Below are positions 6,176-22,769 of a stretch of 22,769 bases of DNA, in pieces. The stretch is from a virus, in the IMG/VR virus record IMGVR_UViG_3300009515_000029, positions 1 to 22,769 of that record; one strand, written 5' to 3'. The position numbers and the translations under genes were made by a program. Each line of letters opens with the position of its first letter. The stretch's first letter is position 1. The notes below the pieces were generated by a model. The model searched no databases and had not been told where the DNA came from. It was given only the letters and a program-made list of their open reading frames with translations.

Positions 6176-8467
6176 ATGGCGCAAAGACGATTTGGGCCAA
6201 CCCGTGGCGCGGGCACTGCCATTATTGAAAAAGAAGGTGATAAGCCCATTGAGAAAGGAGCGCTGGGCTGGGTTGGGTATGCAGGAATTCTGGAAAAGGG
6301 TCAGGTAGGCGAACTGATCCAATGCAGTAACAAGACGCAGTTTGAAAAACAGTGTGGTAGTTACATTGCAGATTCTCTTTTGCCAGATTGCTGTTATGAC
6401 TTTTTCAAAACAGCGGCTGGAGCTGGAGGATTGTATCTGGTTCGAGTGACAGATGGTAATGAGGTTCAAGCAGAGATCACGTTGTATGCTCGTAAAACCA
6501 GTATGGCCGCGATGGGAAAAATCAAAGCCAAAAATGGTGGTCGCTGGGCAGGCAAGGCAAAACGGTATTGGAATGAGGTAGCGAGTTCAGGCGATATCGC
6601 TGAAACGGCTTTGACTACCGGAATCACTTCTTGGACAAAAGACGAATGGAAGGGTGGTTGGCTTGAGCTAGAAGAGGTAGCAAGCACGCGGTATCCTATC
6701 ATTGGAAACACTGCTGCTGGAGTGGTTACGGTAGCGGCTGACCAAACGATGTCAACCGACTTTGGTGCAGGCACAGATTTGCAATACTATCTGTACTTGG
6801 AAAACGAATCAAAGGAAGTGACTTGCGAGATCAGAGACGGGATTGAGAATCCGACGACGGAATTTGGACTGTACATCTATGTTGATGGTGATCTGGAACT
6901 GGAGTACACGGATCTGTCTACCGATCCTACTTCAAATCGATACTGGGTCAACATCATCAACAATGACGACTCGAACCATCAAATCGTAGTCGAGGATCTT
7001 TGGACAGGTGCTCATGTTGCAGATGTTCGACCTGCAAATCTTTACGGTCTGAATTCGGCTATTGCTGCAACCTCCATCACAGCGGTAATCCATGAATTCG
7101 ATCCTGCAACGACAGGAGATGCGGACGGCACGGCTGCTCTTGGAACGACAACGGATGACCATGTTGCTCAAGTGTTGACGTTGACTTTCTCTGATGCCAC
7201 GACAGCAGCGGTGGTCAGTGACAAGTTTGGCGCACTTGGTGATTTGACTGTCGGGTCAGAATTCAGTCAGACGGATCACAAGAACAAATGGGTGCCTCCA
7301 TTTACGCTCACGGCAGGCGCTTCGGTATGGGAAGCGGCAGATGTTGCCACTTTGATTTACAAACCTTTCGTTGCCGATGAGTTGATCGGTGGTTCGTTGT
7401 ATCCAGACAAGCCAAATGCAACGCGTGAATTCTATCGAATCACTGACAACGATCATGATTCGATCACGGTTGCCGCTGGTTCGGACATGACGAATGCTGG
7501 AGCAAGGACAGGTGGCGAGACTTTTTTGGTCGTGGCTCCATTGCCGATGGGTGGTGGCAAAGACGGTATCGCGGATCTGGCCGATTCAGACTATGAGCAG
7601 CAAGCTTGGGATACTTCAGGCAGTCCATTCAATCAAATCCAGGGAAAGAATGCTGGTTTGATTAAATTCGCAACCCCAGGAAATTTTGCGACTGCGGTGC
7701 AGAAGGCAGGTCTTGCTTATGCTGCGGCGAAAAATCATCAGTATCGGTACGAAGTGGATTCATCGCTTACGACCGAAGCTGGAGTGGATGCTTACATCAA
7801 CGACACGATTGGTCGCTCGGATTATGCTAAGGTGTCTTTTCCTAGCTACGGATATGTCGCAGATCCCGAAGGCAACGGTGAGGGTAGGCTGAAATTGGTT
7901 CCTCTCACTGGAAAAATTCATGGTAGAGAAGCACGCATAGCGGTCGATTATGACGGTTACCACAAAGCTGGAGCAGGACTGGATGCAACGTTGCCTGGTG
8001 TGTTGAAGCTGACCACGGGCGATGCAATTCTGGACGAGGAATATCTGAATCCTCTTGGAATCAACATTGTCAAAAAGATGAGTGGTAACTTTGTCCTTTG
8101 GGGTGACCGTACTCTGTGGACCGATCCGAATTGGAAATGGGCTCATCAGCGAGAGCAAATGAGCTATTACGAGCAAGTTTTGGAAGAGTCGTTCGATTGG
8201 ATCATTTTCATGATCAACGACAAGGAAACTCAAGATTTGGCTCGTGCCTCTCTCAAGAGCTTTTTCTTGCCAGAATGGGTAAAGAGAGCATTGAGAGGTG
8301 ACACTTTCGAGGATGCTGCTCAAATCAAGATCGATGATGAAAACAATACCAATGCAACCATTGCAGCGGGTGATCTCAACGCAGAAGTCACTTTGCGCTT
8401 GGCTGATACGGTGGAGAGGTTCATCATCACAATTGGTAAAATGGGAATTTTTGATTCTGTGGCTTAG
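6176..8467 (+). CDS. Tail sheath protein
   Basis: 763 residues, preceded by the strongest ribosome binding site of the window (AAAGGAGG at 6162-6169, 6 bases from ATG), as expected for an abundant structural protein. The N-terminal region has GWVGYAGILEKGQVGE and GGLYLVRVTDG, the usual sheath N-terminal hub. Large beta inserts occupy about residues 110-450. The conserved core and C-terminal domain follow: GLIKFATPGNF, YAKVSFPSYGYV, EARIAVDYDGYHKAGAG, LNPLGINIVKKM, GNFVLWGDRTLW, then SFDWIIFMINDKET and EVTLRLADTVERFIITIGKMG at the end. The subunit contracts around the tube to drive infection. It is larger than typical P2 (about 400) or T4 (about 660) sheaths. It is followed by the tube gene after one small gene. 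Confidence 0.95.
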   Translation: MAQRRFGPTRGAGTAIIEKEGDKPIEKGALGWVGYAGILEKGQVGELIQCSNKTQFEKQCGSYIADSLLPDCCYDFFKTAAGAGGLYLVRVTDGNEVQAEITLYARKTSMAAMGKIKAKNGGRWAGKAKRYWNEVASSGDIAETALTTGITSWTKDEWKGGWLELEEVASTRYPIIGNTAAGVVTVAADQTMSTDFGAGTDLQYYLYLENESKEVTCEIRDGIENPTTEFGLYIYVDGDLELEYTDLSTDPTSNRYWVNIINNDDSNHQIVVEDLWTGAHVADVRPANLYGLNSAIAATSITAVIHEFDPATTGDADGTAALGTTTDDHVAQVLTLTFSDATTAAVVSDKFGALGDLTVGSEFSQTDHKNKWVPPFTLTAGASVWEAADVATLIYKPFVADELIGGSLYPDKPNATREFYRITDNDHDSITVAAGSDMTNAGARTGGETFLVVAPLPMGGGKDGIADLADSDYEQQAWDTSGSPFNQIQGKNAGLIKFATPGNFATAVQKAGLAYAAAKNHQYRYEVDSSLTTEAGVDAYINDTIGRSDYAKVSFPSYGYVADPEGNGEGRLKLVPLTGKIHGREARIAVDYDGYHKAGAGLDATLPGVLKLTTGDAILDEEYLNPLGINIVKKMSGNFVLWGDRTLWTDPNWKWAHQREQMSYYEQVLEESFDWIIFMINDKETQDLARASLKSFFLPEWVKRALRGDTFEDAAQIKIDDENNTNATIAAGDLNAEVTLRLADTVERFIITIGKMGIFDSVA

Positions 8468-8754: not shown

Positions 8755-8784
8755 AACAGGAGCACTTGCCATTGGGAGGAAATG

Positions 8785-9222
8785 ATGAAAGGGAAAATTA
8801 AGCCTGACCATATGCCGGTCAACAAGTTTGAGCTTATCATCATCGGTCTACCTCCTTTTACTCCGATCACAGTGAGCGGAATTGAGGATGAATTGCAGAC
8901 CGTGGATTTGCCAGACAGAACCAAAGCGAGTGGTGGCAATCGAGGACCGAGTGAAGTAGTTGTAATGCTTCCAATGCACCATTTGGCTGAACAGGCTGCA
9001 ATGGAGTTGTGGTACACTGAAAGCCAGGATCCAGTTGCGCCAACATACAAGAAAGTCGGCACGTTGATCTACAAGAGCTTGAGTGGACAAGCATTCAAGA
9101 GCTACACTTTGGATGGTGTGTTTCCTTCAAAGCGATCTTTGCCTGAAGGGGATATGGCAAACGAAGGAGAGCAAGCAAACGTCGAATGGACTTTGCAGGT
9201 AGACAACGTACTACCGATCTAA
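8785..9222 (+). CDS. Tail tube protein
   Basis: A 145-residue protein (ATG 8785; ATG 8782 is in frame, but GGGAGGA at 8774-8780 spaces better to 8785). The sequence fits the gp19/FII-type tube family: a start PVNKFELIIIGLPP, then LQTVDLPDRTKASGG, SEVVVMLPMHH, AMELWYTESQDP, YKKVGTLIYKSLSG, and a last strand EGEQANVEWTLQVDNVLPI. Tube subunits stack as hexameric rings through which DNA passes. The length is typical for the family. The order sheath, small gene, tube, then tape measure after a chaperone-type gene supports the assignment. A short linker of 63 bases separates it from the next gene; I see no clear regulatory site in it beyond the ribosome binding site at 9274-9278. Confidence 0.88.
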   Translation: MKGKIKPDHMPVNKFELIIIGLPPFTPITVSGIEDELQTVDLPDRTKASGGNRGPSEVVVMLPMHHLAEQAAMELWYTESQDPVAPTYKKVGTLIYKSLSGQAFKSYTLDGVFPSKRSLPEGDMANEGEQANVEWTLQVDNVLPI

Positions 9223-9273: not shown

Positions 9274-9278
9274 GGAGG
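9274..9278 (+). promoter_or_regulatory. Ribosome binding site GGAGG for the GTG start at 9286
   Basis: GGAGG lies 7 bases before GTG 9286. The upstream in-frame GTG at 9241 has no such site, and its first 15 codons give a composition unlike the rest of the protein, so 9286 is preferred. Confidence 0.75.
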
Positions 9279-9285
9279 TAAAACC

Positions 9286-10116
9286 GTGGAACAAGCCGAA
9301 CGTTACAAAATCATAACTGTGGGAGAGCTAGGGGATAGACTTCCTATTGGAATTCTGAAAGACGGTGTTCTGTATAGGGATATCGATGCCCGGCCTTTTA
9401 CAATGAAGCATGAACGTGTTTTGGGTGCGATACGAGACAAGCAACGGCAAAACAACGTAGCAAAGTTTGCCAGCATAGTCATATCGCAGTTGTGTACCAA
9501 AATTGGGCACCATGATTTTGAGTCAATGAAAGAGTCTGAAAGGTTGTTGGCTGTTAGTCAAATGTGGATGCCGGATGTTTACTATGTGTACGTTTGGTTG
9601 AGGATTCGATCTATCGGTTCTGAGTTGTCAATGCAGCTTACTTGTCCTAGTTGTGCAAACGAATTTCAGTATATTGGGGAACTTGATACGGTGGAAGTGC
9701 GAGTTCCTGCACAAGAGGGCGAAGATGTTCTTTCTTGGGATTACACTTTGAGAGATCCTTTTGAGCTTCGCAATAAAAAAGTCGAAGGTTTCAAAATGGG
9801 AATGTCGAGGTGGGGTTCGCTAGAGCCAGTAACGACAGGGGCTTTCAATTCAGGCGAGGCAAAGGCCGCGCTCATTCGGGGAAGTGTTCACGAAATACAC
9901 GGGTGGGATTCTGTTGCATTGGGTTCGGATGAGCTAGACGACATGTCAAAATATGATGTTGAGAATATCTCGGTCAGCATTGACGAAAATCGATTTGGGC
10001 CTGACTTAGCATTGAGTGCCGATTGCCCCAGGTGCAATCAAAAAATAGGCACTATGATAGACTGGGGTTATGATTCTTTTTTCTCGACTTCTTCCCGATC
10101 ACGCCGCTCGACGTAG
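9286..10116 (+). CDS. Tail assembly / baseplate-hub type protein with two CxxC knuckles (zero-frame product)
   Basis: The zero-frame product is 276 residues from GTG 9286. Two CxxC pairs, C120/C123 (CPSC) and C247/C250 (CPRC), are separated by about 125 residues and together could form one four-Cys zinc site. Helical stretches include LLAVSQMWMPDVYYVYVWLRI. The type recalls T4 gp26-like baseplate hub proteins and the zinc-knuckle genes often found between tube and tape measure in contractile phages. This position is normally held by the tail-assembly chaperone gene that frameshifts. The last 10 residues after the slippery site (STSSRSRRST) are low-complexity. The main interest is the -1 extension, described separately. 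The zero-frame product would be the more abundant form. Confidence 0.75.
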   Translation: MEQAERYKIITVGELGDRLPIGILKDGVLYRDIDARPFTMKHERVLGAIRDKQRQNNVAKFASIVISQLCTKIGHHDFESMKESERLLAVSQMWMPDVYYVYVWLRIRSIGSELSMQLTCPSCANEFQYIGELDTVEVRVPAQEGEDVLSWDYTLRDPFELRNKKVEGFKMGMSRWGSLEPVTTGAFNSGEAKAALIRGSVHEIHGWDSVALGSDELDDMSKYDVENISVSIDENRFGPDLALSADCPRCNQKIGTMIDWGYDSFFSTSSRSRRST

Positions 10117-10292
10117 TAAGGGAAGAAGCGTTTTTCTTGGCATATGCCAGTAAGGGCGGGTTTCCTATCGAGCACATAGAAAGGATGTCGCCAATTGATC
10201 GGAGGGCATATTGCGAGCTTCTTGGAAAGCAGCTAAAGGCAGAAGCCGACATATGGAAAAAGGGTGCTCGTAAGCCTCGATCTGGGAGGTAA
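9286..10292 (+). CDS. Frameshift fusion product of the tail assembly gene (-1 at 10083)
   Basis: Reading -1 at the heptamer 10077-10083 joins residues 1-266 to a 69-codon extension starting CTC at 10083 and ending TAA 10290-10292, a 335-residue protein. The extension reads like real protein: FPITPLDVVREEAFFLAYA, then GGFPIEHIERM, IDRRAYCELLGKQL and KAEADIWKKGARKP. This helix-turn-helix pattern, with an EExxFLAY segment and a later xRRxYxxxL helix, resembles tail-assembly chaperone and T4-type hub-assembly ends (recalled). It has no Shine-Dalgarno start: the frame opens only at 10074 after a TGA at 10071, and the first usable initiators (TTG, then ATG at 10185) lie inside the conserved part. 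Its stop lies 5 bases before the tape measure start. In related systems a small fraction of ribosomes shift to make the long form, which binds the tape measure. Confidence 0.8.
10077..10128 (+). promoter_or_regulatory. -1 ribosomal frameshift signal (T_TTT_TTC plus 9-bp stem)
   Basis: In the zero frame the codons are TCT TTT TTC, giving the canonical X_XXY_YYZ heptamer T_TTT_TTC at 10077-10083. After a 4-base spacer comes CTTCTTCCC (10088-10096), perfectly complementary to GGGAAGAAG (10120-10128), with a 23-base loop. Heptamer plus downstream stem is the classic stimulator of -1 frameshifting, as found in many phage tail assembly genes. The spacer is slightly short against the usual 5-9 bases. 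The zero-frame stop TAG (10114-10116) lies in the loop. Confidence 0.8.
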
Positions 10293-10297
10293 CTGTT

Positions 10298-13063
10298 GTG
10301 GCATTAACCTCGCTCGGTATTGGTGCAATTCTGTCATTTAATGCACGTAACGCATTAAAAAGTATGCAACAAGCACAGATGGCATTTGGGGAAATTGATT
10401 TATCCGCGACTCGCCTTGATACAACTATCCAAATGGCTACAACACGGTTTGTTGCTAGAATGATAGTGGCCAGGTCTTCTGTTAAAAAGCTTGCGTTTGC
10501 AATGGCAACCAACGCTGTAATGGCTGCAAATAAAATGGGCAGAGCGATTGTCAAAGCTGTGGATATGAGTATTCGCGCTTTGAAAAAGCTAGGCCAGTTT
10601 GCAGGGAGGACGGCCAAAGCTGCTGGTCAAGGGTTTAAAAATTTAGGGAGTGCCATGTCTAACGCTGGAGCAGCAATGCGAACAGCGGGCATGGGCATGC
10701 TTCCAGTTTCGTTTGCTTTGAAAAAGGGGATCGATACAGCGGCAGGCTTTGAACATCAGATGTCAGGGGTTCGAGCTGTTCTCAAAGGTGTTAGTCAAGA
10801 GGACATGGAGCAGTTGACTGCTAAAGCTAAGGAAATGGGAATCAAGTCGGCTTTCTCAGCACAACAGTCGGCGGAGGCAATGGAGAATTTAGCTCGTGCA
10901 GGTTTCAAAACCAATGACATTATGAGTGCGATTGAAGGCACGATGAATGCTGCTGCTGCTGAAGGTATGAGCCTTGCGGATTCTGCACGTATCGTTGCGA
11001 ATAATGTTCGAGCGTTTGGTTTGGATACGGGCGAAGCAAACAGGGTTGCAGATGTAATGGCCCTGACTTCTGCAAGAACAAACACCACAATGGAGGAGTT
11101 GGCAGAAGGTCTGAAGAATGCTGCTCCTACTGCTCGAAATCTGGGTATGGATATCGAGGAAACAGCGGCGGCATTGGGGTTGCTTGCAGACACAGGTTTG
11201 CAAGGAGGCCGATCTGGAACAGCGTTGAAAAATGCATTGCTCAAGTTGGCCAAGCCGACAGCGGCGGGCACTGCTCATATGGAGCGAATGGGACTTACCA
11301 TGAAGGATGCAGTGACTGGTAATATGCTCCCATTGAATGATATCCTGTTGCAATTGCAAAAGGGAATGAACAAGACAGGTGGTTCTGTGGATCGTGCTGC
11401 CGCTGCTGCTGAGTTATTTGGTCTACGCGGCATTCCACTAACGAACATGCTTACTCGCTTGCAAAGTCAAGGCGAAGGTGGTGCTTTGACTCTTACCGAA
11501 CTAGAAGAACAATTGAGGAATGCTAAGGGATCTGCCGAGGAAATGGCAGCGACTCGTTTGGACAACGTGATTGGGCAGCTAACCTTATTGAAATCGTCTG
11601 TTCAAGGTGCAGCTATTGAGATGTTTGAAGGTCTGCTGGGTCCGATGAAAGATGGATTGAAGGATTTCATTGGTGATGAAAACAGCGGTCTCAACGGTGT
11701 GATATTTGCTGTCCAAGGAATGAAGGCTGCTGGTCCTAAAGCCATGGCGGTTTGGGAAAAGGCTATGGAGAAAGGGGTTGGCGGTCCTCGTGAGATGGCG
11801 ATGCAGTTTGCAAAAGCAGGATTCACGATGAAAGAAAGCACTGCATTGACAGAAAAGCTTGGTTTTAAAATGACTCCAATCCAGCAAATTGCTTTAGGAA
11901 TAAATGATGCGGTTGTCTGGATGAAACAAGCTTTTCAAGGTGTGCTCGATTCAGTGTCTGAATTTTCAAATTGGTTGAATGAAAAACTTGGTGGCGAGGG
12001 TGTCAGAAAATTGACGACAATAGCAATCAAATTTTTGACGATTGCTGGTGCGATAACTCCTATCGTGCTAGGCGTGGGTTTGTTTTCTTGGGTTTTGAAA
12101 TCTTCCTTGTTGCCGATGATCAAAGCAGTCGGATTTGCTTTGAAGTTTGCATTCAGCCCTGCTGGATTCATTGTATTGGGTGTCATTGCAGCGATCATGC
12201 TTTTGCGAAAAGAGGGCGAGGATTTGTTTGATACGGTCAGACGAATCGGTGGAGGCATAATCGATTTTTTCAAAAACATTTGGGACAATGCGCTCAAGCC
12301 TTTTATCGATGGTTTTTTGGAGAATTTCCAGCATGCATTTACGCTCATTGGTGAGATTTTTACAGGAATTGGAGAGTTGTTCTCTGAGATTATCGGAATC
12401 TTTGTTTCTGATACTGATGAAGGGCTTGGCCAAGCGAGCGGTTTTTGGAAAGGATTTGGTAAGGTGGTGAGTGTTGTTCTGGGTGCGACACTCGTGATCA
12501 TCAAAGCTGTTGTGGATGCTCTCAAGCAAATGGTCAAATGGGTTTCTGAAGCAATAGACGGATTCATGGAATTCTCTGGCCTTGCTGAAAAGAAAGAAGC
12601 TAGAGCAAAAACTAATTTGGCAGGTACGGTTGAAGTAGCAGGCACATTTTTGAAGGTGCAAAATATTCGAGAAATCACTCAGTTGATGGGTCGGCAACAG
12701 CAACGTCAATGGGCAGCGGCTATTGCTGAACAGATGACTCCTGAACAATTGGCCAAACTCGATCCGAGAGTTTTGAAGGAAATGGGTCCCCAGTTTATCA
12801 ACATGATCAAAGAACAGTTTGGTGCAAAGGCAACAGCCGAAGCAGAGCGTAAAGATGTTGTTCCAGAATTGAAAGCTGAAATCAAAGGCGATCAGAATAT
12901 CGATGTGAAGGCTACACTTTGTGTGGATAAGAAAGAAATGGCAACGGCTGTAGCTCGACAGAAAATTGAAATTCTGGAAAGGACTGGCGGTTCTAAAACA
13001 CCATGGCAGCCTATGCGCAATTTGGAATTCCAAGGTTTTGATCTTTCGACGACTAGGGGTTAG
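10298..13063 (+). CDS. Tail tape measure protein
   Basis: 921 residues from GTG 10298, with GGGAGG at 10284-10289 spaced 8 bases. The N-terminus (1-100) is helical and Ala-rich. The TP901/PhageMin_Tail-type core lies at about residues 140-430: GFEHQMSGVRAVLKGVS, KAKEMGIKSAFSAQQSAEAM, NLARAGFKTNDIM, ADSARIVANNVRAFGLD, MALTSARTNTTMEELAEGLK and GLLADTGLQGGRSGTALKNAL. Hydrophobic segments lie at about 571-637 (several helices, including an AGAITPIVLGVGLFSWVL stretch) and 724-740. The C-terminus is Gln/Lys/Ala-rich. It sets tail length and is released into the host envelope with the DNA. It follows the frameshifting gene and precedes the LysM adaptor, the standard order. Confidence 0.95.
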   Translation: MALTSLGIGAILSFNARNALKSMQQAQMAFGEIDLSATRLDTTIQMATTRFVARMIVARSSVKKLAFAMATNAVMAANKMGRAIVKAVDMSIRALKKLGQFAGRTAKAAGQGFKNLGSAMSNAGAAMRTAGMGMLPVSFALKKGIDTAAGFEHQMSGVRAVLKGVSQEDMEQLTAKAKEMGIKSAFSAQQSAEAMENLARAGFKTNDIMSAIEGTMNAAAAEGMSLADSARIVANNVRAFGLDTGEANRVADVMALTSARTNTTMEELAEGLKNAAPTARNLGMDIEETAAALGLLADTGLQGGRSGTALKNALLKLAKPTAAGTAHMERMGLTMKDAVTGNMLPLNDILLQLQKGMNKTGGSVDRAAAAAELFGLRGIPLTNMLTRLQSQGEGGALTLTELEEQLRNAKGSAEEMAATRLDNVIGQLTLLKSSVQGAAIEMFEGLLGPMKDGLKDFIGDENSGLNGVIFAVQGMKAAGPKAMAVWEKAMEKGVGGPREMAMQFAKAGFTMKESTALTEKLGFKMTPIQQIALGINDAVVWMKQAFQGVLDSVSEFSNWLNEKLGGEGVRKLTTIAIKFLTIAGAITPIVLGVGLFSWVLKSSLLPMIKAVGFALKFAFSPAGFIVLGVIAAIMLLRKEGEDLFDTVRRIGGGIIDFFKNIWDNALKPFIDGFLENFQHAFTLIGEIFTGIGELFSEIIGIFVSDTDEGLGQASGFWKGFGKVVSVVLGATLVIIKAVVDALKQMVKWVSEAIDGFMEFSGLAEKKEARAKTNLAGTVEVAGTFLKVQNIREITQLMGRQQQRQWAAAIAEQMTPEQLAKLDPRVLKEMGPQFINMIKEQFGAKATAEAERKDVVPELKAEIKGDQNIDVKATLCVDKKEMATAVARQKIEILERTGGSKTPWQPMRNLEFQGFDLSTTRG

Positions 13064-18978: not shown

Positions 18979-19515
18979 ATGGCCGACATAACTTCAAATG
19001 GAACTGGCGGTGGCGATTGGTCTGTAGGGGGAACGTGGACAGGTGGGACGCCTCCAGGGGTAGGCGACAACGCCATTATTCAGTCAGGTGATACAGTCTA
19101 CATCGACGGCGATATAACAATCGGAGATGGAAGCACGTCTTATTTTTCTGTCTGGCAACTGAACATTCAAGGAAATCTTGTTTGGCGCAATGAGGCCGGG
19201 GATGCTTCGTCCAATTGGACTTTGAACATCTATGGCTCAGGTATTCGAATTCTGTATCCGGGAAGGTTCTTTATCGGCACCGAGGACGATTCTTTGTTTG
19301 GAAGCAAGTCTGTTGGTCCGATCCCGGCGACTCGCAAAGCAACGATCAATTTCACGTTAGATTATTTGATGCGTGTACAAGTTGACAATCATGATGATGG
19401 AACTTCTGCATTTGAATTTTGGGGAGCGGAGAACTACCATCAAGACGCGCCTCCTTCGATCACATCACAGACTGTGGACTCCGCGACTGACAAGATTTCC
19501 TTCATCGATTCAGGA
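18979..19515. repeat. Fibre N-terminal module, copy 1
   Basis: Codes for 179 residues shared with 21549-22085, which has the same length. Identical protein blocks include GTEDDSLFGS, SVGPIPATR and SFIDSG, and 17 bases are identical at 18994-19010 and 21564-21580. Similarity stops at SFIDSG, after which the two proteins diverge. Confidence 0.85.
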
Positions 19516-21537
19516 AGATCTGGGGACACTGCGAACAAGTGGCGTGGTGCTTGGCTGGAGATAACAGCCGGAACGAACGTCGGGCAGAAGAGAGAAATCA
19601 CTGTTTTTGATAATACGACAGGAAAAATTTCTTGGAGCGCAAACCAGCCTATGCCTGATCCGTGCGATAGTTCTTCGGTCTACTCCATTGTCCACAACTA
19701 CCATAGGGCGATGCTCTTGTCAGACGCGAGCGCGGGATCGACTGTTGACATCTACTTGGACCGACCAGCCAATTGGAGCGATGGTGATGAGGTAGTGATC
19801 GCGGTCGGAGTTGATTACGCGCAACAGACTGAAAAGCCAGAGCGCGTTCAACTGACAAAGATAGATGCGAGCCACTACACAGCCGACTTGACTTACGATC
19901 ACAAGGCAGGCGACTTCATCGTCCACCTCGACAAGAACATTGTCTTCAACTCGACAGACCTTACTGGAAGCCAAAAAAGTTACTGGTTTTATTTTACGAA
20001 TGGAACAGGTAACTTTTTCAAGTGCTATTGGACATTTTTTGACAATTCAGGCACGCCTGGAAATGATTTTTTCTCTCGCGGGTCAGGTTACTACTTTCCT
20101 GTGATGAAGCATGTAACCGCGTTTGGTCACCAATATTCCACCTCTAATCCGACTGGCGATTTTATCGATGCTCGGGGATGGCGATTTATGCCCGAAGAAT
20201 ATCAAATAGAGGATATTCATATTTGCAACCATGGCGGTCTGTTAGATATGGGTGGACAGTTTTCAACTGACAACCCGATAGAAGATAAAGAAAGGATGCT
20301 GTTCAGGAATTTTACTCTGATCGGAATGGGCGTTACGGCTACGTCTGGACAGTTCACTGGTAGCGATCATGGGGTTGGTATAGTTCCACGATTCTACAAT
20401 ATCTGGGCGACAGGCAGATCGTTTGAGGTTGTGAGCAATGAGTATGGGTACGGTTATTATGGCGGCGCTGCTCACATAGACGGGTTCAAGTTTTATCAAG
20501 TTAATAGAGGTATCTGGATGGAATCAGCGATCGGGTCATCGCAATGCGGAGTAATCGAAGATTGCGCAATAAAGAATGGCCTAATACACTATGCCCACAC
20601 CTTAGGCGTTCTGCTGGACACGATGCACGCATATCAAGTGGTTGTTGAAAATGTTGACATCCGGTCTGCGGTGACTGCGGCTATTCAGTTTGAGGATTGT
20701 CCTAGTTCCAACGTTTACTTGATAAACAACAAAATCAACGCCTGTGGGATTGGATTGAAGTTTTTGCCACAAGCTTCCGTTGGTAGCGTTTACGAACACA
20801 GCGGGGAGTACGGAGTTGACGATCCGAACATCAATCACAATATCGATTTGGTTGGATCTCAAACTATGGATGAGTGCAGCATTGCGTACATATCGCAAAA
20901 TACAAAATATGTTACGCCTTCAAGCCCAATCTTGACAGAGTTTCTGATAAACAAAGTATTCGATCAAAGTACTGGAAGCGGAACACTCAAACAGAGGAAG
21001 TTCAGGGCAATAAACTCGTTGAGCAAAATGCAGCTAGTCAATCCTACTATCGACGGGACCCCATATCACTCTATGGCTTTGACTCATGCTTGGACGCTTG
21101 TTGAGATTGTAGAACATCCTACAGTGCCGAGGGTCAACTCGAACATCAAGATGAAAATAACCCCGTATGCTGCCTTGGGTGAGGCGCATGTCAACTTTGC
21201 GGATCCGATTGTTTTCGAGCTAACAGCGAATGACGATGTGACAGTTTCGGTTTGGTTCCGAAAAAACATTTCTCAACTTGCTGGCTATACTCCCAAGCTG
21301 ACAATAATAGGTTGTGGGTTTTACAAGTCGGCGCAGATGTCAGACGCGATAGATACTTGGGAAAAAGTCTCGATCTCTTTCACGGCGAGATACACAGGCA
21401 CAGTGATGGCGTGGATCAGTTGTTACAATAACCTGGCGTATCCAAAGGATGACCTGAACGGATATGACGCCGAACCTGCTGCCCAAGGAACCGTGGTTGT
21501 GTACGCTGACGAGTTTGACGTTTCGATAGTTGAGTAA
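18979..21537 (+). CDS. Tail fibre / spike with G8-like N-terminus, beta-helix and C-terminal jelly roll
   Basis: 852 residues, AGGAG at 18967-18971. The N-terminal module (1-179) has GTGGGDWSVGGTWTGGTPPG and GDTVYIDGDITIGDG, a G8-like beta module, with later blocks IGTEDDSLFGS, SVGPIPATR and SFIDSG. Residues about 340-600 show repeated short strands with NN-I/V-type turns (IEDIHICNHGGLLDMGG, FKFYQVNRGIWMES, VVVENVDIRSAVTAAIQFEDC, VYLINNKINACGIGLKF), fitting a right-handed beta helix. Residues about 700-852 resemble a carbohydrate-binding jelly roll (VTVSVWFRKNISQLAG, WEKVSISFTARYTGTVMAWI). A polysaccharide-binding or depolymerising spike is plausible; no catalytic residues are identified. It follows J directly. 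Confidence 0.8.
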   Translation: MADITSNGTGGGDWSVGGTWTGGTPPGVGDNAIIQSGDTVYIDGDITIGDGSTSYFSVWQLNIQGNLVWRNEAGDASSNWTLNIYGSGIRILYPGRFFIGTEDDSLFGSKSVGPIPATRKATINFTLDYLMRVQVDNHDDGTSAFEFWGAENYHQDAPPSITSQTVDSATDKISFIDSGRSGDTANKWRGAWLEITAGTNVGQKREITVFDNTTGKISWSANQPMPDPCDSSSVYSIVHNYHRAMLLSDASAGSTVDIYLDRPANWSDGDEVVIAVGVDYAQQTEKPERVQLTKIDASHYTADLTYDHKAGDFIVHLDKNIVFNSTDLTGSQKSYWFYFTNGTGNFFKCYWTFFDNSGTPGNDFFSRGSGYYFPVMKHVTAFGHQYSTSNPTGDFIDARGWRFMPEEYQIEDIHICNHGGLLDMGGQFSTDNPIEDKERMLFRNFTLIGMGVTATSGQFTGSDHGVGIVPRFYNIWATGRSFEVVSNEYGYGYYGGAAHIDGFKFYQVNRGIWMESAIGSSQCGVIEDCAIKNGLIHYAHTLGVLLDTMHAYQVVVENVDIRSAVTAAIQFEDCPSSNVYLINNKINACGIGLKFLPQASVGSVYEHSGEYGVDDPNINHNIDLVGSQTMDECSIAYISQNTKYVTPSSPILTEFLINKVFDQSTGSGTLKQRKFRAINSLSKMQLVNPTIDGTPYHSMALTHAWTLVEIVEHPTVPRVNSNIKMKITPYAALGEAHVNFADPIVFELTANDDVTVSVWFRKNISQLAGYTPKLTIIGCGFYKSAQMSDAIDTWEKVSISFTARYTGTVMAWISCYNNLAYPKDDLNGYDAEPAAQGTVVVYADEFDVSIVE

Positions 21538-21548
21538 GAGAGGATACG

Positions 21549-22085
21549 ATGACTGCATACGACTCAAATGGAACTGGCGGCGGCGACTGGGGGAATTCAG
21601 CTACATGGAGCCCGGCAGGTGTTCCTGGAGCCGGCGATCAAGCCACCATCCTTGCAGGCGATACGGTTTACATTGATGGCGACAGGACCATCGGAGATGG
21701 AACGGACACAACCAGTGTCTTTCAGCTTATGATCTACGGAAATTTAGTTTGGCGCAACAGAACTACTGATGCTTCCGCGAGCTGGACGTTGAGTATCGAC
21801 GGGCACATGAGGATTTACAACAACGGCTTTTGGTACATCGGCACAGAAGACGACTCGTTGTTTGGGTCGGAGTCTGTGGGTCCGATTCCAGCCACGAGAA
21901 CAGCAACGGTCAATTTCATAAACAACTATCATCATCGATGCAGTGTTTGGTCTTGGACGAATTCATACACTGAATATGCTCAAGAGTTTTGGGGAGTTGA
22001 GCATTACCATACAGGTACCCCTCCTTCCACAACAGAGCAACTAGTTGATTCATCAGCGAGCAGGACCTCGTTTATTGATTCGGGC
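21549..22085. repeat. Fibre N-terminal module, copy 2
   Basis: Counterpart of 18979-19515: 179 codons, the same block order, ending at SFIDSG (22068-22085). Internal small gaps in the alignment cancel, and the wobble positions differ widely, so the duplication is not very recent or has been shuffled. Confidence 0.85.
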
Positions 22086-22769
22086 TCAATAGTGGAACAC
22101 CCGACAGCTGCGTATTGGGAGTTTGACGGTACAGATGATGCCTTGCGGCTAGCAGGAACAGACCCCAAAGCTTCTGTTTTTGACCCAACCTTGAATAGCA
22201 ACGATTTTACTGTCGCCGGGTTCATACGTCCAGCAGATGTGTCAGGTGTCGAAGGAATATTCGCCAAGCATTTAGGAAATGGTACAAATGACAGGACTTG
22301 GTCTTTTTTCAAGAACGGTGCGGACATTGGTTTGGGAGTTAGCAGAGACGGTACTGATACCAATCAAACTATATTGTACCAATCTGGCCTGTCTGCTGGA
22401 GTTGATTCATTTATTTGCGGCAGATTCAAGTATAGCGGAACTCCAGGTACAAGCAGCGAGTTCACAGTTAACGTTGATACGGCCAGTACGCAAATAACCA
22501 ATGGCAATGGCCCTGTTAATTCTACAACGGCCTCGGATATACAGATAGCCGATTTCGATTTCATTTTTGATCGTTTTTACGAAGGCAGAATCTACTGGCT
22601 CGCATACTGGAATAGAAAACTAACTGACTACGAAGTCTCTCTGTTACGAAGAGGTAGCTATCCAGCCGACTTAAAACCAGACGCTTATATTGATTTCAGT
22701 AAGGCAGTTGCGTCAACCTACGATATGGAGATACCTGCATCCAACCCTATACAGTTTGATGTGGAAGGA
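21549..22769 (+). CDS. Second tail fibre / spike, shared N-terminus and LamG-like domain (3'-partial)
   Basis: ATG 21549 follows GAGAGGA within 21538-21546. The frame stays open for 407 codons to the right edge, so the C-terminus is missing. Residues 1-179 match the preceding fibre (GTGGGDWGNSATWSPAGVPGAGD, GDTVYIDGD, IGTEDDSLFGS, SVGPIPATR, SFIDSG). Immediately after, a concanavalin-like LamG-type domain begins (about 190-385): YWEFDGTDDALRLAG, SNDFTVAGFIRPADV, GIFAKHLGNG, a strand ending in the RIYWLAYWNRKLTDYEVSLLRRG motif typical of Laminin_G_3. Such domains bind sugars or proteins at the receptor. It is a second adsorption protein, possibly displayed on the same baseplate site as its neighbour. 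Confidence 0.82.
   Translation, partial: MTAYDSNGTGGGDWGNSATWSPAGVPGAGDQATILAGDTVYIDGDRTIGDGTDTTSVFQLMIYGNLVWRNRTTDASASWTLSIDGHMRIYNNGFWYIGTEDDSLFGSESVGPIPATRTATVNFINNYHHRCSVWSWTNSYTEYAQEFWGVEHYHTGTPPSTTEQLVDSSASRTSFIDSGSIVEHPTAAYWEFDGTDDALRLAGTDPKASVFDPTLNSNDFTVAGFIRPADVSGVEGIFAKHLGNGTNDRTWSFFKNGADIGLGVSRDGTDTNQTILYQSGLSAGVDSFICGRFKYSGTPGTSSEFTVNVDTASTQITNGNGPVNSTTASDIQIADFDFIFDRFYEGRIYWLAYWNRKLTDYEVSLLRRGSYPADLKPDAYIDFSKAVASTYDMEIPASNPIQFDVEG

Follow-up and report, generated by a model that had tools for sequence, protein, structure and literature searches.

The window, that is, the entire stretch of 22,769 bases from an IMG/VR virus record that was analysed here, belongs to a contractile-tailed phage and carries its genes for sheath, tube, tape measure and baseplate. 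The locus of interest is a gene with a T4 gp26-like product, which is flanked by the genes for the tail tube (placed by position) and the tape measure protein, as is expected of the gp26/gp51 type; the sheath, tube and gp26-like genes follow one another in the same order as in the Streptomyces phage LuckySocke. The tape measure protein is likely the client of the chaperone encoded here. The features of the locus and its surroundings are:

6176..8467, +, tail sheath (phrog_23, E=3.6e-26), the query that found the relatives
8782..9222, +, putative tail tube, placed by position only, between sheath and chaperone
9286..10116, +, zero-frame ORF of 276 aa, TAC-N, T4 gp26-like (PF12322, phrog_150)
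9643..9654, +, first CxxC knuckle, CPSC, residues 120-123, read from the sequence
10024..10035, +, second CxxC knuckle, CPRC, residues 247-250, read from the sequence
10077..10083, +, T_TTT_TTC slippery heptamer, in zero-frame phase, conserved in relatives
10083..10292, +, -1 extension of 69 aa plus TAA, TAC-C, resembling the T4 gp51 C-domain (phrog_634; codon periodicity)
10088..10096, +, 5' arm of the proposed stimulatory stem, CTTCTTCCC, perfect complement of 10120-10128
10120..10128, +, 3' arm of the proposed stimulatory stem, GGGAAGAAG, exact reverse complement of the 5' arm
10284..10289, +, GGGAGG, ribosome-binding site (RBS) of the tape-measure gene, directly 5' of the -1 frame stop, read from the sequence
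10298..13063, +, tape measure protein of 921 aa (PF10145, E=2.5e-48; phrog_1533, E=2e-87)

Profile searches with the 8782..9222 ORF recovered no family match. Towards the end of the window, the ORFs at 18979-21537 and 21549-22769 have similar starts (SNGTGGGDW...GDTVYIDGD.TIGDG), which suggests that they are tandemly duplicated, tail-fibre-like genes.

Predicted short and long products of the probable chaperone gene

The short product starts from a GTG at 9286, with a GGAGG upstream at 9274-9278. It matches PF12322 (45.2 bits against a cut-off of 24.5, E=1.2e-11) and the baseplate hub family phrog_150 (E=1.8e-12). C120 and C123 of the first knuckle are nearly invariant across 29 relatives, and the second has the consensus CPxC among them. 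An AlphaFold2 model of this product (pLDDT 92) matches T4-like baseplate hub proteins in a viral library, including that of Bacillus phage SP-15; a PDB search with the same model returned no match at E<=0.001, siphophage chaperones included.

Near its 3' end the zero frame reads TCT TTT TTC, with TTTTTTC occupying 10077-10083. Checks of coordinates and phase agree with an earlier note on this DNA, which had placed an in-phase T_TTT_TTC here and the end of the zero frame ten residues further on: these residues, STSSRSRRST, complete the 276-aa product. The same note had described a 69-residue -1 frame that opens at 10074 without an RBS and ends with a TAA at 10292, five bases before the tape measure gene. 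This frame is present as described, opening after a TGA at 10071-10073 and closing with the TAA at 10290-10292, 5 nt before the tape-measure GTG at 10298; it has no start codon upstream of a TTG at 10137, its first start-like codon, which itself lacks an RBS. Positions 9286-10083 joined to the -1 extension would make up a long product of 335 aa (TAC-NC). In-frame heptamers of the X_XXY_YYZ type number 21 in the window's 6,834 codons, and the chance of an open -1 run of 71 codons is about 1%. As four of these heptamers are T_TTT_TTC, so that the window has three further in-frame copies of this very sequence, the signal in the window alone is weak evidence.

The extension is predicted to form three helices, and there is an alignable helical domain in every case compared. 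The phrog_634 family (baseplate hub assembly catalyst, T4 gp51) matches the window's extension with E=5e-4, a match that is found at E<=0.01 in only one of the 29 family members, and the profile of the family's extension hits the cyanophage C-domain with E=0.0013 at a probability of 18%. The family extension and the gp51 C-domain lie in the same place, have the same length and share the motif M.P.[ED]R...Y..L. The argument for their homology is thus modest by sequence and strong by position, and we treat the extension as a putative counterpart of the gp51 C-domain. Among the searches that were set aside, a mixed alignment of six sequences had diverged too far to serve as a query, a comparison of the A6 and A2 profiles was discarded because A2 includes the window's own sequence, and a comparison of the A5 profile with the single T4 gp51 was uninformative.

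The proposed frameshift site in near and distant relatives

Used directly as a query, the window's gp26-like protein had no match in viral or genome contigs, and the tape measure query recovered one unrelated locus only. A search with the sheath protein yielded 36 viral contigs and thereby opened the family, whose contigs are up to about 108 kb long; the best tblastn matches to named phages are at ~20-26% identity. In 33 relatives (the overlapping L126 being left out) the gp26-like gene has its 3' end intact, and 28 of these remain after removal of duplicates; together with the window these constitute a set of 29 loci.

Alignment of homologues had been proposed as a check on the heptamer, and T_TTT_TTY is indeed found at the homologous codons in 33/33 relatives, with TTC in all but one. 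The zero-frame stop usually lies 22 nt from the start of the heptamer. The -1 frame is open in all 33 and codes for a conserved domain of 58-80 aa that aligns throughout the 29 loci (RxFFPxxxxxxLREExFALTYCMxGxTYxDxExM...DRxWYLxRL.KQLK), and it is followed within ~20 nt by the tape measure ORF in most loci. Homologues without the slippery site and with separate starts for the -1 part, which had been named as evidence against a frameshift, were looked for, and none was found among the window's relatives. At all 29 loci T_TTT_TTY writes the homologous Phe-Phe, as against 13 of the 166 such pairs in the remainder of these loci, and the codon before the heptamer's TTT TTC always ends in T, though the residue that it encodes varies (S, N, D, G, H). 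Related loci are non-independent events, and such counts have therefore not been made into probabilities. Within the -1 extension, substitutions are concentrated at the third codon positions of the -1 frame. One relative, L104 (IMGVR_UViG_3300032164_000041, 9873-9879), reads T_TTT_TTT and is one codon shorter ahead of the conserved REE block.

The same heptamer recurs much further afield. In the cyanophages P-SSM2 and metaG-MbCM1 it is found where gp26 ends, and gp51 occupies the -1 frame; it is likewise present in 80/80 cyanophage-type contigs, always 10 nt before the gp26 stop, whereas the window's zero frame runs 10 codons past the site. Across the site in the cyanophage set the periodicity of substitutions switches from zero-frame to -1-frame codons. 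The heptamer is also found in Agrobacterium phage Atu_ph07 and Pseudomonas phage PA5oct.

These comparisons bear on the reading of the -1 part as a separate gene with its own start, which the public annotation of P-SSM2 gp51 (L006:3166-3339) as a gene in its own right assumes, and with which the annotation of such stretches elsewhere as small hypothetical genes would agree. We hold this to be very improbable: the TTG at 10137 in the window lies behind the stem and lacks an RBS, the only ATG of the window's extension is mid-domain, and in the relatives start codons are absent, deep within the domain or behind conserved residues, such that the FFP and REE residues precede any start in most of them. 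Moreover, the -1 frame of 16/29 loci is closed by a stop codon 3-6 nt ahead of the heptamer, and this stop together with the lack of early starts means that the whole domain cannot be independently initiated. P-SSM2 gp51, too, is probably a -1 extension of gp26 rather than a separate gene.

Alternatively, the T run could contain an indel introduced by sequencing or assembly, which would turn the locus into one continuous 335-aa gene. This view would find some encouragement in the error-prone nature of homopolymers and in the fact that the window is a single contig without reads. However, over 110 loci, drawn from many metagenomes as well as from sequenced or finished phage genomes, share the six Ts followed by C with unchanged phase; the 33 relatives agree in this with the 80 cyanophage loci, one relative having a seventh T. 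The short zero-frame tail and the position of its stop are conserved in the relatives, and the pattern of substitutions by codon position switches frame at the site. Since the same heptamer is shared by relatives, cyanophages, Atu_ph07 and PA5oct, we regard such an error as very unlikely.

Proposed stimulatory elements around the heptamer

The earlier note had also proposed a stimulatory stem, and its perfect 9-bp pairing between 10088-10096 and 10120-10128 stands (9/9 bp paired, 4 nt downstream of the heptamer); its conservation is less complete, for the structure is strong in the window and most relatives, but a good stem is missing in some, being weak or absent in L089, L107, L119 and L121. 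The energy of the downstream fold in the window reaches z = -2.0 relative to dinucleotide shuffles and likewise to synonymous-codon shuffles, and against synonymous recoding the mean z is -1.8 for 28 family loci and -3.9 for 79 cyanophage loci. Across the relatives 77% of the cells of the aligned stem are paired, compared with 41-57% when the alignment is slid. Changes on both sides of the stem in the relatives are no commoner than in column shuffles, and as this covariation is not significant, the case for the stem rests on its energy relative to the synonymous null. The stem is hence supported on average, not in every relative. Spacers to 3' stimulators are commonly 6-9 nt (PMC5009743); with a spacer of 4 nt in the window, the lowest pairs of the stem would have to melt.

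Cyanophages (L009-L088) add a Shine-Dalgarno-like element, GGAGG, GAGG or GAAGG, which is found in gp26 at 9-10 nt before T_TTT_TTC in 80/80 loci and spans roughly the bases 10-17 nt ahead of it. The Glu codon within it is GAG in 72 of the 80, as opposed to 31% elsewhere; this bias and the fixed spacing are as would be expected of a 5' frameshift stimulator. The corresponding element is weak in the window's family (z 0.4), where the stem is the likelier stimulator. The family and the cyanophages together offer a deep natural alignment in which the trade-off between stem and Shine-Dalgarno-like element in -1 signals can be studied.

Transcriptional rather than ribosomal slippage, for which a six-T run with a downstream hairpin might be invoked and where one added base would give the same fusion, deserves very little credence, for six Ts are short for polymerase slippage, the heptamer keeps the ribosomal phase with a T before TTT TTC whatever the residue, and the anti-Shine-Dalgarno-pairing element 9-10 nt upstream in all 80 cyanophage loci acts on ribosomes.

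Chaperone pairs of other phages and C-domains in other frames

On the basis of these sequence comparisons, we consider it very probable that the locus encodes a tail assembly chaperone (TAC) pair of the T4 gp26/gp51 type produced by -1 frameshifting, a device that is customary in long-tailed phages. The comparative evidence thus sides with the earlier proposal of a -1 shift that fuses a two-knuckle, T4-hub-like body to a chaperone-like end. Most ribosomes would finish the zero frame and release the 276-aa short form (TAC-N), while in a minority, perhaps some percent, the downstream stem-loop would help a -1 slip on T_TTT_TTC, after which another 69 residues would be added to yield the 335-aa long form (TAC-NC). 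By analogy with lambda G/GT and the literature on T4-like phages, the short form may coat the tape measure protein, and tail tube subunits may be recruited by the C-domain of the long form, which would be the scarcer of the two; if so, the ratio of the two, as set by the rate of slippage, would matter for tail assembly. With respect to the G/GT and E/E+E' systems of lambda and P2, the window's chaperone has no match in sequence or fold to the solved structures, and the slippery sequence of lambda differs from that of the window.

The closest parallels are the gp26/gp51 loci of T4-like phages, those of cyanophages included. Like the window, they have a gp26-like body, a gp51-like C-domain and the tape measure gene downstream, and the reading frame of their short form has a poly-T slippery site at its 3' end; the window's lineage is distant from them, with 21-25% identity to cyanophage gp26. 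T4 gp51 consists of a PF12322 domain (residues 1-201) and a C-terminal extension, and T4 gp26 of the PF12322 domain alone, such that the short form has its counterpart in gp26 and the long one in gp51. However, T4 has two separate genes without a frameshift, as opposed to the one gene with a frameshift in the window. These two roles were reportedly given to T4 genes 26 and 51 by Vladimirov and colleagues in 2022, and the present locus supports this assignment.

That study treats TAC-N and TAC-NC of T4-like phages (Vladimirov, Gautam and Davidson, 2022, Virology 566:9). The PRFect paper (PMC10885494) cites it for some T4-like phages having short and long chaperone genes with no frameshift, and the paper on phage Adele (PMC12846349) refers to it for T4-like TAC-N genes that have poly-T slippery sites; a 2016 review still lists T4 as the exception to G/GT frameshifting (PMC5009743). 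As these citing papers convey it, the arrangement has already been reported for T4-like phages, and the window is therefore a further case of a known arrangement, in a lineage far from the named phages. The TAC of the Vandenendeviridae phage Adele, likened here by description only, similarly has a conserved -1 poly-T site before the tape measure gene in myoviruses, though its motif, GTTTTT, is unlike that of the window (PMC12846349). Frameshifting at these loci would correct gene models, giving one gene with two products, in uncharacterised contractile-tailed environmental phages as well as for the cyanophage gp51 that is annotated separately in P-SSM2.

Other lineages place the C-domain differently. 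In the Streptomyces phages LuckySocke, Alone3, GiJojo, pSt2308 and BRock (L002:4155-4214; L127, L128, L129, L130) it occupies the +1 (or -2) frame as counted from the gp26-like gene, and annotators have either made it a small gene of its own or passed over it. The gp26-like gene of these phages ends in TTT C(AG/GC) GAA CTC T(GA/AA), and UUU_C or CUC_UGA is a candidate site for a +1 frameshift. The +1 (or -2) frame is also used in Bacillus phage SP-15 and Listeria phage LIS04, both Thornevirus, Streptococcus phage GXN1, Microcystis phage Mel-JY01 and a huge uncultured phage (this set comprising L005:3008-3070, L133, L134, L136 and L137). UUU followed by a pyrimidine, a context prone to +1 shifts in bacteria (PMC5009743), lies near the homologous Phe in the Streptomyces set (TTT C) and in SP-15 (TTT CAC). 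It is conceivable, and we put this forward tentatively, as somewhat less than an even chance, that one and the same gp26-type chaperone gene has come to shift in different directions in different lineages, by -1 in the window's family, cyanophages, Atu_ph07 and PA5oct and by +1 (or -2) in the ten phages just listed, with separate short and long genes in T4. Such a switch would mean that the fusing of both products has been under stronger selection than the means of fusing them. In yet another huge phage, LR756511 (L135:2176-2240), the C-domain lies in the -1 frame and the zero frame runs longer, with no T_TTT_TTC within its last 60 nt.
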